Below are positions 23,854 through 33,584 of a stretch of DNA of 38,362 nt, piece after piece (the stretch's first letter is position 1; each line of letters starts with the position of its first letter). The notes beneath the pieces were generated by a model. It worked only from the letters and a program-made list of their open reading frames with translations, made no database searches and was not told the DNA's origin. A program made the position numbers and the translations under genes. The stretch comes from a virus: IMG/VR virus record IMGVR_UViG_3300042905_003398, positions 1 through 38,362 of that record; one strand, 5' to 3'.

Positions 23854-26800
23854 TTATATTCCGAACCGTGCGCGGCTTGAGTTGTAGTTTTGCAATATTT
23901 CTTGTTGTGAAAGCGTGCGAGAATACACACGAACAGCGGATATTCCACCGTTGTAGTGGTAATCCCAATATGAACCTTCTGCACCAAATGCATACCAATT
24001 AGTGCCACCACCATAACCATGACTTCCTAGAGCAAAAATTCCACTTCCACTTCCAATGATATGTTTGCCAGGATATATCTGCTGTCCAACTTGTTTTCCA
24101 TTCGTGTATATGGTAACTGTTGTCTGATCTGATGCAGACGAATAACTGAATGTAGTAACTGCATAGACATATTTTGTAGGAACAACGAAATCCGAAGCCT
24201 GTGCTATGACTCTTTGTATGTTTTGTGTATTGAAACTGTTAAAATGATTTCCTGCATCACCGTATACAAAGTATGGCAATCCTTTACTAGCCCACATACC
24301 AAAACCATAATAACTAGTTACATTTTGCACAATAGGAATTGGCTTCACCCATGCTTCCCATGTGCTATTTCCAGTTTCGTCTGAAGAACCAACACTCAAA
24401 GTTGGTATTGTACGAATGCTTGTGGTTCGCTTTTTGTCAAACACCACCACCCCACCATCACCACTACTGTATAGAGGCTGCGACAGGGCGTACATATTCT
24501 GACCCTTGCCGCTGATGTCATAGATGGTGTTTGGTGTGTTTGCCAGTAGTTCAGCAATTGTAGGCTCGGTTCCGTCTACGAGATCAATTCGGGGAAGCAT
24601 GAACCGTGCCTCTGTTTCAGGAACATTGCTTCCATACAGACCAATACGCAGAGCAGAACTAGTAGCATCGGATCTCCATATGTAATCGCTGTAGTTGTCT
24701 CCCGCGCCAGAACCATTTACTAAAGGAGCATATGTCAATCCTCCGCCACCAAGAGCATACCATCCGCTGTTTGGATGGTTGGAATTTGCTCCGCTTGCTG
24801 TTCCTTCGGGGTGTATGTGTCCAACCACAAGCAACCACTGTCCCACCCTGCTTGTGGGAATCTGCGAACTTCCAACAGTTGCAACGGCAAAATAAGGATT
24901 GGGTTGCTCCGCTCCTGTTATTTTGTTGTTTACTCCCCCATATATTGTTCCAATATAAACATCACCAGCATTAGCATCCATTCTCTGAATCCACACAGAA
25001 TACCGATACAGTTTTGTCCGATCTATTGGAGTTCGTGTGCTGACAAATCCTCCATTCCAACCAGATATACTTGAGTTAACCGAGTGATTCACTGCTCTCC
25101 AAACCATTCTTGGGTCGCCCCACGCATCAGTAAAGCGTTCAATTCTGTTGCTGTGGGCATGACCTAATGTTGTGTTGATCCGCTGTCCTATGCCGTAGTG
25201 TCCCAGTGTGACTCCATCTGGTTCACCAGGAATCAAAACTCCGGTATCGCGTGCATACGGCAACAACTGAACACCCGATATGTCGTATTCCACACCAGCA
25301 CCGAGTCCAGACAAACCAAAAAGAACGACAGACTGTTCTGGTGGATTGGCAATCCCGTCACTGGGTTCTTTTCGTGTTCTTGAAATTCTGTACCATCCAC
25401 CGCCAACACTCTGCACTGTCGCGGCAGCAAGATTGTAGTTGTTTGGAACATTCCAATAAATATACATGGAAGCGGAAGAAATTGCTGCTCCATCTGTTCT
25501 GCGAACATACATCACTGCTGTCCAAGCCTTGTTTTTGAACCCAACATAATTAGGATCAATCCAGTTCTGAACAGGACTGATATAAAGGTTTCCGTTCGTT
25601 CCTGTACGCATACGGAATACCTCAGCACCGACGAAAGGTTCAGGTCTAGCCGCTGGTTGTTCAGATCCTGTTGTTGAGGTAACACGCAATATCGGTCCTG
25701 CACCTGCTGCACCATCTCTACCAAAAGCACTAACATCCAAAGGCTTCAATACATTACGAGGTATAGGCTCAAACAGAGTATTCTTAATGAGATTCTTGTC
25801 ATGTCCCCGTGCAAATTCACCGATACACGCGCTCTTTCCCGCATCAAAATAGAACTCAAGTCCTTTCTTGATTACAAAGTCTTCCGTTGGTGGAGCAGTG
25901 ACTTCTGCAATGTAGCGATTGGTTGAACGAGAACGGTTCAATCCCTCATCGCCGTTCAGATACACCCGTATTCTGTTGTCCGAGTCACGAACGGCTTCCG
26001 CAACAGACACACCAAAACACACACCAGACACATGGGGATCGTATACAATGTAGTTCTGTGTCACCGACTGTTGATCTCCGCCTGGTCGGAATCCAACGGC
26101 ACCCACTGGTGGCAGCGACGCACCAGGATACAGAAGTGTTCCAAGTGGAGTCACGCTGTAGTATTGGCTCGTTTGGAAAGCGGGAGTCCTGTCTTGCACA
26201 TTGTAAGGGCGAGAGAACAGCACAGAGTCAATCCGCACTGATGGGTCAGCAGGATTGTAATTGACACTTCTTGACGCAAGTAGTCCGTATCCATGACTCA
26301 AGCCCTCAATAGTGGGGCGATACACCACAAAAATATCTGCATCATCGGTGACTGCCAGTTGATTTGTCAGATAAAGATGCTGTCCGTTCAAGACCGCTGC
26401 TGCACTGCTTCCCGCAGCAGTAGTAAATCCAAGACCAACTATAGAACCAAATGTGGCTCCTCCGAAAACAGAGTGAGGAGAAAACACTGGTCCGCCATTG
26501 AAAGATATTCCCGTCACACCAGCAGAAGAAGCAGTAACAAGAACAGGACGGAGTTTGTCAATCGTAATTCCAGCGTTCAAACTAGCCATTCCGTTAAATC
26601 GCCCCCATGTGGGAGGAATCGCGTGGTTTTGTCGTGGAGAAGAGTCTCGCCAGATGTCTACGCTTGCACCGTTCACCACCGATCCACACACCCCGATGTT
26701 TTCTGGTCGGAGCCACAACACCAACCCACGAAGACCTGCTGGTGACCACGAGGTTTCCTTTCCCGAATACCATGCTGTGGTGCTGCCCAAAGGAGCACCG

Positions 26801-28278
26801 ATGGGATTGTGTGCTGTTGTTCCGTCTTCGGGAACATAGCACCAAGTATAGCCCAATGAGTTACCAACAAATACAGTTCCAGTAGAAGTCGTAGTTCCGT
26901 TTGGTCCCACTTCTGCTGTAGACCCGATATACGGGTTATAACCAAGTGGATACAAATCTCCTGTGGCACCGAGCCAATATCCAGAAGCCGTGACTCCGTT
27001 GTTACGAAGATCAACAATCGTGGTGGTCTTGTATGGAGTATACTTTCCGACTACAGGAGTTTCATATGTCGTGGACTGTGTTGATGATAGTGGACTGTTT
27101 ACTAAAAAATTCTTTAGCAACACCGAACCAAACATTTTCGTTCCGGCAGGGTGTATAACCCGCTTCAAAACATCAAAGTATGTGTCTATTGAAACCGCAG
27201 ACTTTAATTCATACGAGAAAGACTGATAGAAGTTGCTGTCTTGTATCTTTTTGTTGGATGACAATTTTCCGCGGTTTCCTGAAAAATAACCAGGATACCG
27301 AGTGAGGGCACTGCGCTTTCCGTATACCTTTGCACTTTGCTGTCCTGTATCGCTAAAAACAGACAACAAGAAATAATCAGCAGACACTCCGGGGGAACTC
27401 TGACCGTAGTTTACGCCAGAGTTAATGATGTCTATCTTTTTTATACCTCCAGCAAGTCCAGTCTGTTGAATTTTTGCCGAAAACCCCTTTCCGTTCTCGT
27501 CAAACACAGTCACGGCATCGCCAATTCTATATCCACTGCCGGGCACTTCTACAAAAAAATCTCCAAGCACCGAATATGTGCGCTCAACCCATTTTTCATC
27601 TCCACCAACAACGGTGACCTCTTGATCGGAATTAAATGTACCGTTGATGTCGGACACAAAGAATTCCGTGATTGGCAATCCACTGAAAGAATACTGAACA
27701 ACAGAATTGATGAACGCACTGGCAGAAACTTCAGCACCATTGTATTGGTAAAGATAACCTCCTTTTCCACCAAACAAAGATGTTCCGTTTAGGCTTGTTG
27801 TTTTTATAGAAACAGGTTCTATCCACTCACCATCAGATGCTTTGAGCAAATCAGATGATGGATAGTAAATCTCTAGATCACTGTCATACAGAACACGAAA
27901 CAAGAATTTGTAAGCACTCTCTGTGCCCTTTTTTCCGTAAAACTCTCGTATTTTTTTCAGAAGAGTGTTTTTGTTTGGAACTTCTCCTGACTCGTTTTCT
28001 GCCAAAACTTCTGGAAATCCGTCAAGATAAGTGGACTTAAAGTGGTTGTAGAACTCCTGTGCGTTTTCGTCAACATCAGAAACCGCATCCAAATTCATCA
28101 ACACATAAGAAGGATTATTCTTTTTTTCAAGCCACTCGTAATACGATTTGATGAACAGTATCAATTTTCCGTAATCGGATCGTGCAAAAGAAGGAAACTG
28201 TTCTCGTATGAAAGGAGACAGAACCTTTTCGAGTTCGTCTGTAGGAGTGCTGAGAACTATGTTGTTGATTCCGCTCAT
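23854..28278 (-). CDS. gp7: Baseplate wedge protein (gp7) fused to lectin-like adhesin modules
   Basis: The N-terminal ~400 residues correspond to the C-terminal third of T4 gp7. PFIREQFPSFARSDYGKLIL, then REFYGKKGTESAYKFLFRVL at 111-130 and FDVLKRVIHPAGTKMFGSVL at 368-387 align with T4 segments around RNQYPREE, FYSTKGIEASYKFLFKVLY and RFVHPVGFGF. From about residue 515 the protein is not gp7-like. Residues 516-800 start a lectin domain (GLVLWLRPENIG, VDIWRDSSPRQNH, RIRVYLNGDEG) without its usual end. Residues 803-1474 look like a second one that starts GLEFYFDAGKSACIG, carries two jelly-roll-like inserts (about 885-1006 and 1050-1240), resumes at TIYDISGKGQN and ends GGISAVRVYSRTLSQQEI. The 1474 residues compare with about 1030 in T4. 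The start is coupled to the gp6 stop and has no obvious ribosome site. Confidence 0.87.
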   Translation of the reverse strand: MSGINNIVLSTPTDELEKVLSPFIREQFPSFARSDYGKLILFIKSYYEWLEKKNNPSYVLMNLDAVSDVDENAQEFYNHFKSTYLDGFPEVLAENESGEVPNKNTLLKKIREFYGKKGTESAYKFLFRVLYDSDLEIYYPSSDLLKASDGEWIEPVSIKTTSLNGTSLFGGKGGYLYQYNGAEVSASAFINSVVQYSFSGLPITEFFVSDINGTFNSDQEVTVVGGDEKWVERTYSVLGDFFVEVPGSGYRIGDAVTVFDENGKGFSAKIQQTGLAGGIKKIDIINSGVNYGQSSPGVSADYFLLSVFSDTGQQSAKVYGKRSALTRYPGYFSGNRGKLSSNKKIQDSNFYQSFSYELKSAVSIDTYFDVLKRVIHPAGTKMFGSVLLKNFLVNSPLSSTQSTTYETPVVGKYTPYKTTTIVDLRNNGVTASGYWLGATGDLYPLGYNPYIGSTAEVGPNGTTTSTGTVFVGNSLGYTWCYVPEDGTTAHNPIGAPLGSTTAWYSGKETSWSPAGLRGLVLWLRPENIGVCGSVVNGASVDIWRDSSPRQNHAIPPTWGRFNGMASLNAGITIDKLRPVLVTASSAGVTGISFNGGPVFSPHSVFGGATFGSIVGLGFTTAAGSSAAAVLNGQHLYLTNQLAVTDDADIFVVYRPTIEGLSHGYGLLASRSVNYNPADPSVRIDSVLFSRPYNVQDRTPAFQTSQYYSVTPLGTLLYPGASLPPVGAVGFRPGGDQQSVTQNYIVYDPHVSGVCFGVSVAEAVRDSDNRIRVYLNGDEGLNRSRSTNRYIAEVTAPPTEDFVIKKGLEFYFDAGKSACIGEFARGHDKNLIKNTLFEPIPRNVLKPLDVSAFGRDGAAGAGPILRVTSTTGSEQPAARPEPFVGAEVFRMRTGTNGNLYISPVQNWIDPNYVGFKNKAWTAVMYVRRTDGAAISSASMYIYWNVPNNYNLAAATVQSVGGGWYRISRTRKEPSDGIANPPEQSVVLFGLSGLGAGVEYDISGVQLLPYARDTGVLIPGEPDGVTLGHYGIGQRINTTLGHAHSNRIERFTDAWGDPRMVWRAVNHSVNSSISGWNGGFVSTRTPIDRTKLYRYSVWIQRMDANAGDVYIGTIYGGVNNKITGAEQPNPYFAVATVGSSQIPTSRVGQWLLVVGHIHPEGTASGANSNHPNSGWYALGGGGLTYAPLVNGSGAGDNYSDYIWRSDATSSALRIGLYGSNVPETEARFMLPRIDLVDGTEPTIAELLANTPNTIYDISGKGQNMYALSQPLYSSGDGGVVVFDKKRTTSIRTIPTLSVGSSDETGNSTWEAWVKPIPIVQNVTSYYGFGMWASKGLPYFVYGDAGNHFNSFNTQNIQRVIAQASDFVVPTKYVYAVTTFSYSSASDQTTVTIYTNGKQVGQQIYPGKHIIGSGSGIFALGSHGYGGGTNWYAFGAEGSYWDYHYNGGISAVRVYSRTLSQQEILQNYNSSRARFGI

Positions 28279-28280
28279 TT

Positions 28281-30074
28281 TTACAGTGATGCCTTCCGAG
28301 TGCTAGCAGTGGTTATGCCAACGGAAACCGAATCTGCATATCCACGATTGATTCTAAATATGCTGTTTTCAAAAAGATAAAGGTCGGTGTTTTCTGGTTC
28401 TGCGGTTATAACAAAAAACAGATCATTTCCAGAAGGAACAAATGTGGTATTCAGACTGACAATTCCTCTGTTATAATCAACCTGTCCAATCTTTGGATAC
28501 TCTATCTTTTGTGTTCCATCATCAGCAACAGAAACAAGATTGAGAGTTCCTTCTCCATCATCAATCAAACTAACTCGCTTCAAAGTACCAAACGAATCCT
28601 TGTGTGTGATAAAAGTAGACTTTACTGAACCAGTCATTTGGTGTATTGGATTCTTGAAATCAACAAAGATTCCTTTTGCGGCAGCCAGTTTGGACAGATT
28701 TATAGCCTTACGCATCATCACCGTCGTTTCGTTGCTGACTATAGACCCATTCAACCCGTTTATTCCCTGTATGAGTTTAGACAGGTAAAAGTTTGATCCG
28801 AATCGCTCAAGAGAACTGGCAGAGTAAGTAAAACAATAAGCAACTACTAGGGCTTTCAGAGTTCCTGCACCGATTGAAGTAAGAGCAGGATTGTATGTTA
28901 CGGTAGAAGACAGAACCAAATCAATGTAATCTGGATCTACTATTTCTGGAGTAACAGTAACAACAGAACGGGTTTTCTTCAACGACGAAACAAGAGAAAT
29001 CTTTTCTTCTCGGGTAAGAGCCGATCCAGATTTTGGCTTTATCGCTATCATAACCTTTCCGTATTGCGGAGGATTCATGCTCTCTCCTCCGTAAACATAC
29101 ACCGAATCAGTATTTGGATACTCTTTCTGAACAACCGCAGCGTAATCGTCTTCGGTGACTGCTCGGCTTTGCGCGGTGTAAAACTTTGGAGCCAAAAACT
29201 TGATGCGAGAAACGCTCTCTTCGGGAGATCCCCCAGAAGAAACCGATGCTGCTGTAATGTTACTCAATCCACTAACTGCTGATGTAAAGCGTGAGATTCC
29301 GTTTGCTGCATCTCCATTTGTCTCCAAATATTCAACAATAACCACGCTTCCGGCAGCAGGCTGCGCTCCCAAGAAGTTGTCACCAAAATACAGTTCATAC
29401 ATTCCAGTCTCTTTTTCCTGTAGGAAATACACCTTTGATGTGGGTGTAAGATCAATGTATGAACTGGTGTATGCCCATGCTTCTTCTAGCCCTGTGTTGT
29501 CTGTTGCCGATGCCTTTACACGCACCTTCATTGTGTTTGTGTCAATCTTGTCGTTTGGAATCAGCAGGACAGAACTGGTCTTCTTCGAGGGGTCATACAC
29601 ATAACTCATTCGACGCAGAGTGCCTTCATAGACACTCATGTTCTCGAACGACTGTTTTGCAGCATTAGCATAAACCGTATCAAGCAAAACAAACCGATAC
29701 TGCGTTCCCGCATCATTCGTACCGATGAACTCCGTGCCACGCGCCAAGTAAGTGCTTTCGGATGCCCCTGCTGCGGACGCTCCAAGAACTGCCTTGGAAG
29801 CGCGACGAGAAGAAGGAACATATCCCAGTGCCTTTGCATGGGAAACAACAGACGGACGAAGAACGGCACTGTCAAGGAACATTTCGTTAGCCACCATATT
29901 GGCATAGAATGCCTGATAGTGGGTGTTGTAGGCAAGCACATCCAGCACAGTGCTGAGAACAGACCCATCAAAATTGTAGTCCTTGAGGGTGTCCTGTGAC
30001 TGCAAATACGCCTTCAAAGAAGCCTTTGCGTCATCAAAATCCAGTCCTACAATGTTGAAACTGTTGTTAGCCAT
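28281..30074 (-). CDS. gp6: Baseplate wedge protein (gp6), baseplate J-like
   Basis: This is the main wedge protein; gp6 dimers form the ring that holds the baseplate together. The 597-residue product begins MANNSFNIVGLDFDDAKASL, followed by YNFDGSVLSTVLDVLAYNTH and MVANEMFLDSAVLRPSVVSH, the strongly conserved gp6/baseplate J start (T4 gp6 is 660). A central baseplate J-type segment includes SPEESVSRIKFLAPKFYTAQ, then RAVTEDDYAAVV, typical of the family. Its ATG shares one base with the gp25 stop (TGATG), and gp7 starts two bases after its own stop, so gp25, gp6 and gp7 form a tightly coupled wedge block. Confidence 0.94.
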   Translation of the reverse strand: MANNSFNIVGLDFDDAKASLKAYLQSQDTLKDYNFDGSVLSTVLDVLAYNTHYQAFYANMVANEMFLDSAVLRPSVVSHAKALGYVPSSRRASKAVLGASAAGASESTYLARGTEFIGTNDAGTQYRFVLLDTVYANAAKQSFENMSVYEGTLRRMSYVYDPSKKTSSVLLIPNDKIDTNTMKVRVKASATDNTGLEEAWAYTSSYIDLTPTSKVYFLQEKETGMYELYFGDNFLGAQPAAGSVVIVEYLETNGDAANGISRFTSAVSGLSNITAASVSSGGSPEESVSRIKFLAPKFYTAQSRAVTEDDYAAVVQKEYPNTDSVYVYGGESMNPPQYGKVMIAIKPKSGSALTREEKISLVSSLKKTRSVVTVTPEIVDPDYIDLVLSSTVTYNPALTSIGAGTLKALVVAYCFTYSASSLERFGSNFYLSKLIQGINGLNGSIVSNETTVMMRKAINLSKLAAAKGIFVDFKNPIHQMTGSVKSTFITHKDSFGTLKRVSLIDDGEGTLNLVSVADDGTQKIEYPKIGQVDYNRGIVSLNTTFVPSGNDLFFVITAEPENTDLYLFENSIFRINRGYADSVSVGITTASTRKASL

Positions 30075-30481
30075 CAGCGGAGCCTTTCTAATACAACCGC
30101 AACTCTGTCTGTCCTGCCCACAGCAACAACTGCATATTCAACACTTACCGTGTATTGATTTTCGTCTGGAAGAGCAACCACATCAACGAGCACATTTGAA
30201 ACACGGGGTTCGTGGTTGAGAATGGTATTCAAAACCCGATCTCGAATTTCCATTGTTGTAATGGAGTCGATGGGTTCAAACAGGAGAGGACGCAGCGACC
30301 CGCCGATGGTGGGCTGAAACAGCCGCTCCCCAAAAGCAGTGGACAGCAGATTTCGGAGAGATGTTCGTATTGCACTATCGTCCCGCAGGGTCAACAGATC
30401 GCCCGTCTTCGCGCTACGCGTGAAGTTTGGATCAATGTCCGTGAATACTGGTGTTCCGTTCCCTGCTGCTCGTAGAGCCAT
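30074..30481 (-). CDS. gp25: Baseplate wedge protein (gp25, GPW/gp25 family)
   Basis: This is the lysozyme-like (inactive) wedge protein that helps start sheath assembly at the baseplate. The 135 residues match T4 gp25 (132). They include DIDPNFTRSAKTGDLLTLRD near the start, AIRTSLRNLLSTAFGERLFQ in the middle, and IGGSLRPLLFEPID, the classic gp25 core containing the 'R..P..G' loop. The start overlaps the upstream stop by one base (TAATG) and the stop overlaps the gp6 start, so translation is coupled through the block. Confidence 0.95.
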   Translation of the reverse strand: MALRAAGNGTPVFTDIDPNFTRSAKTGDLLTLRDDSAIRTSLRNLLSTAFGERLFQPTIGGSLRPLLFEPIDSITTMEIRDRVLNTILNHEPRVSNVLVDVVALPDENQYTVSVEYAVVAVGRTDRVAVVLERLR

Positions 30482-31143
30482 TACTTTTTCCCTGCGTTGT
30501 ATGCCAAATGCGTGTTTATTTCGTGAGCGGTTTCAGATATCAGTTGCTCCAACTTGTCCTGTGAGATGCCTTCTTTCTCTATCGCGTCAAGGGGTTCAGC
30601 CGAACACCAATGACAGAACACAAAACCAAGCGGAGTAATTCCGTCCAAGCACTTCAGTGGAGTAACCGTGAAATACTCGACATTATTTATCTCAAGCCCC
30701 GAACGAAAAGCGGACGGGGACAGCGAATCTGTTTTGATGATCCGCGACGACTGCGTGTCCATGACCGCAACCATATCCATGTATCGGGTAAGCAGAACAT
30801 CCTGCGAATCCAACAGAATACTAGGAATTGTTGTGTCACAAGACTCGTGTGTGACAGAAAACCGCTTTATGGATGTGCCGTCAGCGAATGATCCGCCATT
30901 GTGGAGTTGAAAAACCAAGCATCTGCACGCACGAACAGTTACACGCATCTCTGTGAGCAGTTCGTGAATTTGGCTGTGTTGCTCCACAAATCTGCGCTCC
31001 GTTGAGGGTGACCACTTTGGTTTGAATTTTTGATTGCGTATCACACCCACTATTCCCACGATCAATCCAATTACAAATATTCCAACGGCTTCGCCAGACA
31101 TGAGAAAGAAGTCTTTGAATGTTACTGCTGTGGATGCCATCAT
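30481..31143 (-). CDS. Membrane-anchored protein with possible GAF-like domain (220 aa)
   Basis: The N-terminus has one clear transmembrane helix at about residues 11-34 (MSGEAVGIFVIGLIVGIVGV), followed by basic residues (RNQKFKPKW). That pattern predicts an N-out/C-in single-pass protein. The C-terminal ~160 residues begin with a helix (QIHELLTEMRVTVRACRCLV). They then run FQLHNGGSFADGTSI and RFSVTHES, ending with a GFVFCHWCS-type strand and a terminal helix. This 'LHNG..... S..HE ..... GF.F..W' pattern resembles GAF-like phage and bacterial proteins, though I cannot name the family. It is wedged between baseplate genes with 4-base (ATGA) and 1-base (TAATG) overlaps. Its function is unknown: candidates are a membrane contact of the baseplate, a lysis or superinfection factor, or an assembly factor. 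Confidence 0.8.
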   Translation of the reverse strand: MMASTAVTFKDFFLMSGEAVGIFVIGLIVGIVGVIRNQKFKPKWSPSTERRFVEQHSQIHELLTEMRVTVRACRCLVFQLHNGGSFADGTSIKRFSVTHESCDTTIPSILLDSQDVLLTRYMDMVAVMDTQSSRIIKTDSLSPSAFRSGLEINNVEYFTVTPLKCLDGITPLGFVFCHWCSAEPLDAIEKEGISQDKLEQLISETAHEINTHLAYNAGKK

Positions 31144-31955
31144 CGGAAACCTCCTGATCCGAACCCTGTGGGTGAGCCTCCACGGACAGTATTAATAAAT
31201 TGTGGGCTTACCAAACTACCGTTTACTGTGCTGCCTAGTTTGAAGCACGGATCGTTGTTGGCTAGATCCACCAAACTGGCAAGGGCACTAATGTCTGTGT
31301 ATTTTTGAATAAAGTCTGCCGCAGCGTTCTGTATGGCAGCGGCTTGATCCATCAACTCGTTTATTTTGCCATTCACTTCGTCTAGTTTGGCAAACGCAGA
31401 ATCCAATCCTGCCTGTAGTTCCTGAACAGCGTTGGCTAGATCGGTTCCCGACTTTCCGTCAAAATTGTTCAGTACCTTCTCTAGATCAATATTTGCGGCA
31501 ACTGCTCCCTGTATGGCAAATTGACCGTTCTGATTGACCACATTCAATCCCACGCCAATGTCCAGCCCCTCAATTCCAAGAGCACAACTCAACTCCCCAA
31601 ACAGGCTCAGACTGCTTATGGTGGAAAGCAGCCCTTGTGGAGTAGACAGACGCTCGGATTCCGCTGCAAAACCGTCTACAATACCAGACATCTGATCTAT
31701 TCCATTTTTTCCACGCTGAAGAGATGGAAGTGCTTGTACCAGTGGAGAAGGCAATTGTCCGGGTATACCTCCCCCGCCTGCCTGCTCAATCATGGCGGCA
31801 AGGCGACCACCATTCCGTCCCCCCAACTGACGAACAGCACCAATGGCTGCGGCATTTGGATTTTTGAGCATTTCATTGCTCAATCCAAAATTAAGGATTC
31901 CCTTTTCGCCTTCAGACACCTTTTGCTTGCATGGACATGGTTTCTCTTCAGCCAT
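31140..31955 (-). CDS. Hypothetical baseplate-region structural protein (271 aa)
   Basis: I do not recognise the family. The N-terminus has a CxC pair (EEKPCPCKQK). Next come a Gly/Asn-rich, small-residue stretch (GGRNGGRLAAMIEQAGGGG) and a helical region at about 165-215 with heptad-like spacing (LANAVQELQAGLDSAFAKLD). A glycine-rich end (GGSPTGFGSGGFR) closes it. No signal peptide or membrane segment is evident. It follows the PAAR gene by two bases and overlaps the 220-aa membrane protein gene by four (ATGA). Position between the PAAR tip and the wedge genes suggests a hub-associated structural protein or assembly factor (inference). Confidence 0.75.
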   Translation of the reverse strand: MAEEKPCPCKQKVSEGEKGILNFGLSNEMLKNPNAAAIGAVRQLGGRNGGRLAAMIEQAGGGGIPGQLPSPLVQALPSLQRGKNGIDQMSGIVDGFAAESERLSTPQGLLSTISSLSLFGELSCALGIEGLDIGVGLNVVNQNGQFAIQGAVAANIDLEKVLNNFDGKSGTDLANAVQELQAGLDSAFAKLDEVNGKINELMDQAAAIQNAAADFIQKYTDISALASLVDLANNDPCFKLGSTVNGSLVSPQFINTVRGGSPTGFGSGGFR

Positions 31956-31958
31956 AAA

Positions 31959-32225
31959 TCAACCTATGAAAAAAGTCCCTGATCCAGTGGGCTTGTGCCC
32001 ACAACTTGCTTGACTGGCAGTAGTGCATACAGGAATGCCACCCACAACAAAATTAGGATTGCCTTGCTCCATAACTGCATTATCGTGCTCGTTTGTTCCA
32101 TGATCCTTTACTGGATTTCCCTGAACTGCAACGGCAAATCCATCAACAAAAAATGAAGGATTTCCTACAAGGATCATTCCTCCAGCGGTATCTATGTTGG
32201 CACGGCAAACAGCAAAACTAGGCAT
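31959..32225 (-). CDS. PAAR-motif spike-tip protein (gp5.4-like)
   Basis: This is a tail-spike tip that sharpens the gp5 needle. Starting at the ATG ending at 32225 the product is 88 residues and begins MPSFAVCRANIDTAGGMILV, matching the T4 gp5.4 pattern. Three 'NPSFFVDG'/'GNPNFVVGG' turns give the conical PAAR beta-arrangement. Candidate zinc ligands are His42, Cys67, Cys75 and His77. A longer reading frame starts upstream at 32282, but the shorter start is preferred because a perfect GGAGG lies 8 bases upstream and the N-terminus then matches PAAR proteins. The ATG overlaps the end of the 79-aa gene by eight bases. Confidence 0.9.
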   Translation of the reverse strand: MPSFAVCRANIDTAGGMILVGNPSFFVDGFAVAVQGNPVKDHGTNEHDNAVMEQGNPNFVVGGIPVCTTASQASCGHKPTGSGTFFIG

Positions 32226-32457
32226 TGTAAGTTCCTCCGTCAATGTCTCCGAATGTCGCTCCTGCACCGACACCATCTCCAACTATCATAAATCCAGACT
32301 CGGCTTCTTCGGGCAAGTATCCAAAGGTCTGTGGAACGGAACACACATACGAAATTCCGTTTCTCTCCACCAAATCACCGTAATAATAGACAGCGTATTC
32401 TGATGTGCCCGGCACATATTTACGGTGTCTGCCCTTGTAGTCCATTGGATTGGTCAT
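32218..32457 (-). CDS. Small protein upstream of the PAAR tip (79 aa)
   Basis: I have no firm family for this protein. The central part reads YAVYYYGDLVERNGISYVC, and later VPQTFGYLPEEAESGFMIVG. The 'Y..GD.V...G..Y.C......G..P' pattern resembles small carbohydrate-binding or fibre-end modules seen in phage tail proteins. The ATG overlaps the gp5 stop by four bases (ATGA), and its own end overlaps the PAAR start. It is thus locked between spike and tip and is very likely a hub or spike component (inference). Confidence 0.8.
   Translation of the reverse strand: MTNPMDYKGRHRKYVPGTSEYAVYYYGDLVERNGISYVCSVPQTFGYLPEEAESGFMIVGDGVGAGATFGDIDGGTYNA
32234..32238 (-). promoter_or_regulatory. Ribosome binding site that sets the PAAR start
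   Basis: The minus strand reads GGAGG, 8 bases before the ATG that ends at 32225. It decides in favour of the short 88-residue PAAR product over a longer frame beginning at 32282. Confidence 0.8.
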
Positions 32458-33584
32458 CCCCCGCCTCCTTTGACATTTACGCGCTTGGGATTAAGCACAG
32501 GCTCGCCAGAGTTTACCTCTATGCGCTTGCCCTGCTGCATGACCATCAGAGAATTGTCGGTGATGAACGAAATGGTTCTGCCAGAGAAACCAATATCTTC
32601 GTCCGCATAGAACTCAATAGTCTTTCCTGATGCCTTCAGGGTTCCTTCAATCTGAAGGTTTACATCGTTGTTAGCCAACACATTGGTGTTGCCGTTGATT
32701 TCTATGTTTCCGCCACCGTTTATGGTGATGTTGACTGCACCATCAATCACCAAATTCAGCCCCTGTCCGCCCTTGATGTGAACCTTCTTGTTTCCGTGAA
32801 TTATTTCGTAATCGTTTCCCACAATCCTCTGAACTCGGGTTCCATCAGGATTAATGATACTTCCGTCTACCGCTCGCTCCCAGCCATTTGCAACTTCACA
32901 AAAAGTGCCAGAGTTGTGGTATTGGTGGATGCGCTCTTTTCCCGGCGTATCATCGTATTCCTCTATGTGTCCGCTTTCGGTGTAACGAACATGATTTTTT
33001 GGATAAACCGCAGCATAGGGAGTGAATGGTTCGCTCCATCGGGACTTTCCTGCCATGTTCGGTGTGCTTTGAACCGCACGATCCGTGGTAGACGCACGAT
33101 ACGCTGCATTTGCTCCGCGCATCTGATTCTCGTCGTTGTTTCGGGCAAGGCGATTGGTGTCTTGCTCTCCAACAACAGACACCCCCATTGGAAATTTCTT
33201 TTCCCGAACACCCGCATCGGTGGCAGGATACTTTCCGCTAGGATCGTTGAAGCCTTTGTTTGTGTCCGCAGCAGTCATCGGAACACCGCCAAAAGAACCA
33301 ATCATCACGGGGTCTTGTGCTTCTTCTCCGTCACGGAAAAATCCAAACACATGGGAACCAACAAGCAAGCCTGTTGGAGAAGTTCCTATTCCTGAAAGAG
33401 CAGCACTGGTAAGGGGCTGCATGGGATATGCCCACGGCAGTGCTTCAGTAGGAAGTTCGGTCTTGTCTGCTGAGTGGAATCCAAACACACGGACACGACA
33501 TCTGCCAATCAACAGCGGATCGGCAGTGTCTTCCACCACTCCGTGCCACCACACAAATCCTTCTTTTCCCAAAAAGCCTCTCAT
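32454..33584 (-). CDS. gp5: Baseplate spike protein (gp5) lacking the lysozyme domain
   Basis: This is the central spike of the hub. Residues 8-100 match the T4 gp5 OB-fold: FVWWHGVVEDTADPLLIGRC, then LPWAYPMQPLTSAALSGIGT and GLLVGSHVFGFF follow the same order as in T4. Residues 203-218 (ESGHIEEYDDTPGKER) match the T4 linker ESGHIQEFDDTPGQER. From about 255 to 345 short repeats such as GNDYEIIHGNKKVHIKGG and INGGGNIEINGNTN mark the triple-stranded beta-helix. The roughly 160-residue lysozyme domain of T4 gp5 is absent: only about 100 low-complexity residues separate the OB-fold from the linker. The 376-residue length against 575 in T4 agrees. The ATG overlaps the hub-gene stop by one base (TGATG). 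Confidence 0.93.
   Translation of the reverse strand: MRGFLGKEGFVWWHGVVEDTADPLLIGRCRVRVFGFHSADKTELPTEALPWAYPMQPLTSAALSGIGTSPTGLLVGSHVFGFFRDGEEAQDPVMIGSFGGVPMTAADTNKGFNDPSGKYPATDAGVREKKFPMGVSVVGEQDTNRLARNNDENQMRGANAAYRASTTDRAVQSTPNMAGKSRWSEPFTPYAAVYPKNHVRYTESGHIEEYDDTPGKERIHQYHNSGTFCEVANGWERAVDGSIINPDGTRVQRIVGNDYEIIHGNKKVHIKGGQGLNLVIDGAVNITINGGGNIEINGNTNVLANNDVNLQIEGTLKASGKTIEFYADEDIGFSGRTISFITDNSLMVMQQGKRIEVNSGEPVLNPKRVNVKGGGG

Follow-up and report, generated by a model that had tools for sequence, protein, structure and literature searches.

The window analysed here, a 38,362-nucleotide stretch of viral DNA (IMG/VR record IMGVR_UViG_3300042905_003398), encodes a putative membrane protein of 220 residues within a baseplate operon, which raises the question of what such a protein does among genes for tail construction. 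Pfam and PHROG analysis assigned its surroundings to gp48-, gp53-, gp27-position, gp5-, PAAR-, gp25- and gp6-type genes, and the window therefore represents the tail region of a T4-like phage. This confirms the gp25, gp6, gp5 and PAAR neighbours and agrees with the baseplate setting described in an earlier note on this DNA. The nearest relatives of the gp6 protein are found in Methylophilales, Synechococcus and Pelagibacter phages, at approximately 35-37% identity. The earlier note had suggested that the protein could anchor baseplate assembly to the membrane, sense a host ligand, or act in injection or exclusion; we argue here that control of lysis is a better fit to the wider context of the family than anchoring, injection or exclusion. 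A literature search found no paper describing the 220-aa protein.

The gene begins with an ATG that is preceded by AGGAGG and lies within the end of the upstream 271-aa gene (ATGA, a 4-nt overlap), and its stop codon shares one nucleotide with the ATG of gp25 (TAATG). The start is located 3 nt before the upstream stop in 76 of 78 scored relatives, while one base is common to the stop and the gp25 start in 48 of 79, so the coupling on both sides that had been read from the sequence is a conserved property of the locus (Table 1). Elsewhere in the operon, a 79-aa gene between gp5 and PAAR (32218-32457) has a weak match to a carbohydrate-binding module (PF02839, E 0.0039), and gp6 is followed by a gene for a 1474-aa tail protein (23854-28278) with apparently repeated lectin-like segments near its C-terminus, as judged by eye from the sequence. 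The PAAR protein is 86-102 aa long in most relatives; seven loci (L010-L015 and L037) encode versions of 663-1237 aa, in which a long C-terminal extension, unmatched in Pfam, comes after the PAAR motif.

Table 1. Coordinates of the 220-aa gene, its neighbours and its predicted parts in the window
Feature	Position	Strand	Basis
220-aa protein gene, membrane-tethered, predicted GAF fold	30481..31143	-	ORF, family and fold evidence
gp25 baseplate wedge gene, downstream, 1-nt overlap	30074..30481	-	PF04965 E 2.8e-14; phrog_261 E 3.6e-42
271-aa protein gene, upstream, 4-nt overlap; in 74/76 surveyed loci, fast evolving	31140..31955	-	
PAAR spike-tip gene	31959..32282	-	PF05488 E 1.8e-8
gp5-like hub gene (OB domain)	32454..33584	-	PF06714 E 5.2e-28; phrog_430
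gp6 baseplate wedge gene	28281..30074	-	PF21379; phrog_219 E 1.8e-158
Membrane helix, glycine-rich (G17, G21, G26, G30), invariant E18, then K/R cluster; residues 16-36	31036..31098	-	Hydropathy, conservation, model helix 3-39
Long helix joining membrane helix to domain (bridge-helix position); residues 46-70	30934..31008	-	Model; conserved H56, H60, E61, R67
Beta hairpin with FQLHNGGSFADGTSIKRFSVTHESC, family signature; residues 74-102	30838..30924	-	21/30 columns 73-102 invariant; strands 74-85, 91-102
Predicted C-terminal GAF core ending GFVFCHWC; residues 148-180	30604..30702	-	Conservation and model

The protein features a single strongly hydrophobic helix at residues 17-35 (Kyte-Doolittle 2.4), and none of the 78 full-length members has a value below 1.6 for the corresponding helix, in agreement with the one N-terminal transmembrane helix described in the earlier note. 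Within this helix, which spans about residues 16-36, G17, E18, G26 and G30 are invariant and G21 is nearly so. Lysine and arginine residues average 5.3 after the helix versus 0.9 before it, with the same sign in 78 of 78 members, for which the simplest prediction under the positive-inside rule is an external N-terminus and a cytoplasmic soluble domain. Conservation in this domain peaks at residues 73-102 (21 of 30 invariant, including LHNGGSFADGTSIKRFSVTHESC) and 147-180, and the LHNGGSFADG and GFVFCHW motifs that had first drawn attention to the protein fall within these stretches, at 80-89 and 173-179, respectively. HNGG, D88 and G89 are invariant across 33 members.

Six Cys and six His columns are also prominent, most of them invariant or nearly so within the clade, and H56, H60, H81, H99, C102, C165, C176, C177 and C180 are in this category. 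Together with the predicted GAF fold, this residue set is consistent with a generic membrane-tied sensor of a cytoplasmic ligand or metal that has a role in host takeover apart from lysis or tails, and relatives in Microcystis phages and Synechococcus phage B23, which have no annotated lysis gene beside them, are compatible with this. However, most of the Cys and His residues are lost in distant relatives, where these motifs are reduced to the HN of HNGG and part of THE, and no output domain is present, which makes a sensor of this kind improbable. T4 employs small membrane proteins for superinfection exclusion, and a small one-helix phage protein could likewise be a late product that modifies the envelope or stops DNA entry by a second phage. 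The large and strongly conserved soluble domain, the very high conservation over divergent phages and the placement of relatives in lysis cassettes all argue against exclusion, to which we assign a low probability.

AlphaFold2 modelled the protein with a pLDDT of 77.8 from 33 sequences, rising to 85.5 from 44 once the alignment also contained Leptospira rows and further clade members. The model consists of the membrane helix (3-39), a second helix (46-70), two strands, helices, two further strands and a C-terminal helix. Among the Foldseek matches listed against the PDB, GAF domains rank first (E about 1e-6), including those of cyanobacteriochromes (8k9o, 7lsc) and of a membrane protein (2qyb), with TM-scores by target length of up to about 0.7. 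GAF domains (PF01590) can bind bilin or nucleotide, and the window protein resembles them by predicted fold. The only phage proteins among the 50 PDB matches listed are structures of the T4 holin T (6pxe, 6px4, 6psk; E 1.9e-4 to 2.9e-4), with TM-scores by target length of 0.61-0.69 that are near the GAF values, although generic GAF domains remain the better fold match. The top matches in BFVD, which like all of these fold matches rest on predicted models, included phage proteins named GAF domain-containing, a protein of the crAss-like phage cr127_1 and holins from Proteus phage Stubb (class III), phiP4-3 and Serratia PS2 (T holin). A GAF-like fold for the soluble domain is thus supported at fold level, and the earlier GAF assignment appears right in that sense; by sequence it is marginal, since the curated cut-off of Pfam GAF was not reached and the best match (E 0.02) was obtained in 2 of 33 members. 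Searches of Pfam, PHROG and the PDB gave no match to a virion or baseplate structural family, a result that, with the helix and the GAF-like model, leaves the earlier description of the protein standing.

The T4 match is informative in terms of architecture. In T4 T, a short N-terminus in the cytoplasm leads into a single membrane helix, then a bridge helix and finally a globular domain in the periplasm, to which the antiholin RI binds; hole formation depends on the bridge helix and the N-terminal helix but does not need the globular domain (PMC12162936, PMC11413866). The window protein shares with this class III holin (PF11031) a length of about 218-220 aa, one membrane helix, a long connecting helix and a GAF-like domain, and T is a late gene near tail genes in T4, whereas the window gene lies amid baseplate genes. 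The segment before the helix is shorter in the window protein, and its domain is predicted by charge bias to be cytoplasmic rather than periplasmic; the same count applied to T4 T gives no clear bias. Sequence homology to T holins was not supported: hhalign gave a probability of 0.1 with no significant profile similarity, and no PF11031 match was obtained. The Leptospira pair introduced below aligned collinearly with the T family, without significance.

An initial scan of viral contigs identified 251 encoding stretches, of which 80 that were 45-100% identical were kept. Where neighbours are present, the gene is flanked by those for the 271-aa protein and gp25, and all three genes occur in 74 of 76 loci. 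Because that scan had selected on the 220-aa gene itself, the survey was repeated from gp25, and all 80 of the best 80 of 316 gp25 relatives carry the gene directly upstream; among these, the slot is a fixed feature. The 271-aa partner (31140-31955) has no family match and evolves faster than any other gene of the operon (mean identity 45%), and it adjoins the 220-aa gene almost always despite this rapid evolution. Two scans of bacterial and archaeal genomes found no relatives.

Such strict synteny and coupling with gp25, a mean identity (57%) like that of the structural neighbours (50-69%) and a domain that is cytoplasmic by the charge rule are what would be expected of an inner-face membrane tether for baseplate or hub assembly, in which the GAF-like domain binds gp25 or the 271-aa protein. 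This is the chief rival to lysis control, and is possible, yet rather unlikely and not favoured: the family HMM had no hit around gp25 in the related cultured phages Melnitz-3, HTVC008M and S-SM2, nor in T4 or T5 within the regions examined, although T4 and the three related phages all make baseplates, and the family is represented in a crAss-like phage and in lysis cassettes. The earlier remark that T4 has no counterpart between the spike and gp25 was imprecise about position, as T4 gene 25 lies elsewhere, after gene 26. Gene 26 directly precedes gene 25, and its stop shares 1 nt with the gene 25 start just as in the window (L182 2405-3429), but gp26 is a hub-assembly chaperone unrelated to the 220-aa protein, and was rejected as a positional counterpart due to a lack of profile similarity despite the same gp25 coupling.

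Profile searches connect the clade to a wider family. By significant profile match, the 220-aa protein belongs with phrog_30125 (which includes Ma-LMM01 gp021) and phrog_14038 (which includes Leptospira phage LE1 gp48), with E-values of 5.6e-7 and 1.7e-4 for the window protein and of up to 9.3e-9 for another clade member. The HN-G signature is shared and most members have a membrane helix, whereas the genome context differs and identity is just 20-29%. The family HMM retrieved LE1 gp48, prophage-plasmid proteins, Microcystis phage proteins and the cr127_1 protein at E <1e-8 and a Synechococcus phage B23 protein at E 0.007, and a comparison of A2 with the Leptospira pair gave a probability of 97.9%; the cr127_1 protein as sole query found no relatives in viral contigs. 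With relatives in Leptospira, Microcystis and crAss-like phages and in B23, this is therefore not a baseplate family.

In Leptospira phage LE1, the relative overlaps an M23 endolysin gene by 4 nt, and in Leptospira plasmid prophages it overlaps an M15-type endolysin, also by 4 nt (phrog_894 endolysin, E 3.6e-49). Small multi-helix membrane proteins and lipoproteins are encoded near the relative in Leptospira loci, and in one of these (L111) the gene overlapping the relative has no Pfam match. In cr127_1, the relative is overlapped by a gene for a multi-helix protein of 116 aa, and a crAss tail ring protein comes next. At the level of fold, Polaribacter phage P12002L has a row comprising a small multi-helix membrane protein, a GAF-fold protein and an M15 endolysin (PF13539, E 1.3e-7). 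Gene 26905-27528 was taken to encode the GAF-fold match (A0A0F7IJH8) on the strength of its length (207 aa), and P12002L is weak evidence because this protein has no Pfam family, is missed by the family HMM and lacks a clear membrane helix in a hydropathy scan. T5 and Vibrio phage Gary likewise carry their class III holin directly before the endolysin.

These contexts, a crAss-like phage and a position directly before an endolysin in Leptospira phages, do not support an obligatory role in the baseplate, in assembly or in injection. They also bear on a protein that would travel in the tail tip and, on infection, enter the host membrane to form part of a channel for incoming DNA. The location of the gene between the spike genes and gp25 and a glycine-rich helix with an invariant Glu would suit such a channel, but there is no virion family match, the neighbours elsewhere are lysis genes and the family extends beyond contractile phages, so we consider a part in DNA entry quite improbable.

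Within the clade itself, eight long contigs carrying the gene have no PF11031 (T holin), PF00959 (phage lysozyme) or PF13539 (M15) match, and no endolysin was found adjacent to the gene in the clade's long contigs. The absence of lysis genes is weak evidence because most other contigs are fragments. Two long contigs, G001 and G002, one of 150 kb and one of 147 kb, encode short Destabilase-family (PF05497, i-type lysozyme) proteins (L185, G001 2155-2415; L184, G002 72819-73118) that are approximately 61 kb from the GAF gene, far from the tail operon. A run of hydrophobic residues at the N-terminus resembles a signal sequence and makes these lysozymes candidate exported endolysins, and no obvious small holin was seen beside them.

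Given relatives beside cell-wall-lysis genes and a fold match to the T4 holin, the most likely role of the 220-aa protein is therefore lysis timing rather than tail building, and since its parts follow the same order as in T4 T, a sensor-gated membrane oligomer that controls lysis is the best single reading. We hold it tentatively: the gene could quite possibly encode a membrane protein that controls lysis, as the holin or as a regulator of it, and separate small multi-helix membrane proteins with the relatives in Leptospira, cr127_1 and P12002L make a regulator as likely as a holin. In its favour, we count the T4 T fold matches, the holins among the BFVD matches, the T-like architecture, the Leptospira endolysin overlaps, the P12002L row, the cr127_1 multi-helix neighbour, the holin-endolysin order of T5 and Gary, and the lack of PF11031, PF00959 and PF13539 in the eight long contigs. 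Against it, we count the lack of T-holin profile similarity, the better fold match of GAF domains, the charge bias towards a cytoplasmic domain, the lack of an adjacent endolysin in the clade, the Microcystis and B23 relatives without an annotated lysis neighbour, and a baseplate synteny (fixed in the best 80 of 316 gp25 relatives) that could mean a tail role. Of these points, the reversed charge bias, the missing sequence similarity to T and the constant position within the baseplate operon keep the rivals alive.

For lysis control, we infer a mechanism in which the glycine-rich membrane helix, with its invariant glutamate, would allow oligomers to form in the inner membrane, a rigid connecting helix would lead from there to the GAF-like domain, and binding of a ligand or partner by this domain would gate the oligomer. 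Through translational coupling to baseplate genes, the protein would build up in step with the tail, and the timing of lysis would therefore track tail production. The fuller proposal, that a holin or holin regulator with a cytoplasm-facing GAF-like domain (the reverse of T4 T) is coupled to the baseplate operon such that lysis timing follows both tail production and a cytoplasmic signal, is rather unlikely.

If lysis control is correct, a large group of uncultured T4-like phages keeps a lysis-timing gene within its baseplate operon, and the T4 holin plan of a membrane helix and a GAF-like sensor would be one branch of a much wider phage family that reaches Leptospira, Microcystis and crAss-like phages. 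This would provide a concrete function for two PHROG families (phrog_30125 and phrog_14038), and what holin-type sensor domains sense would become testable beyond T4.
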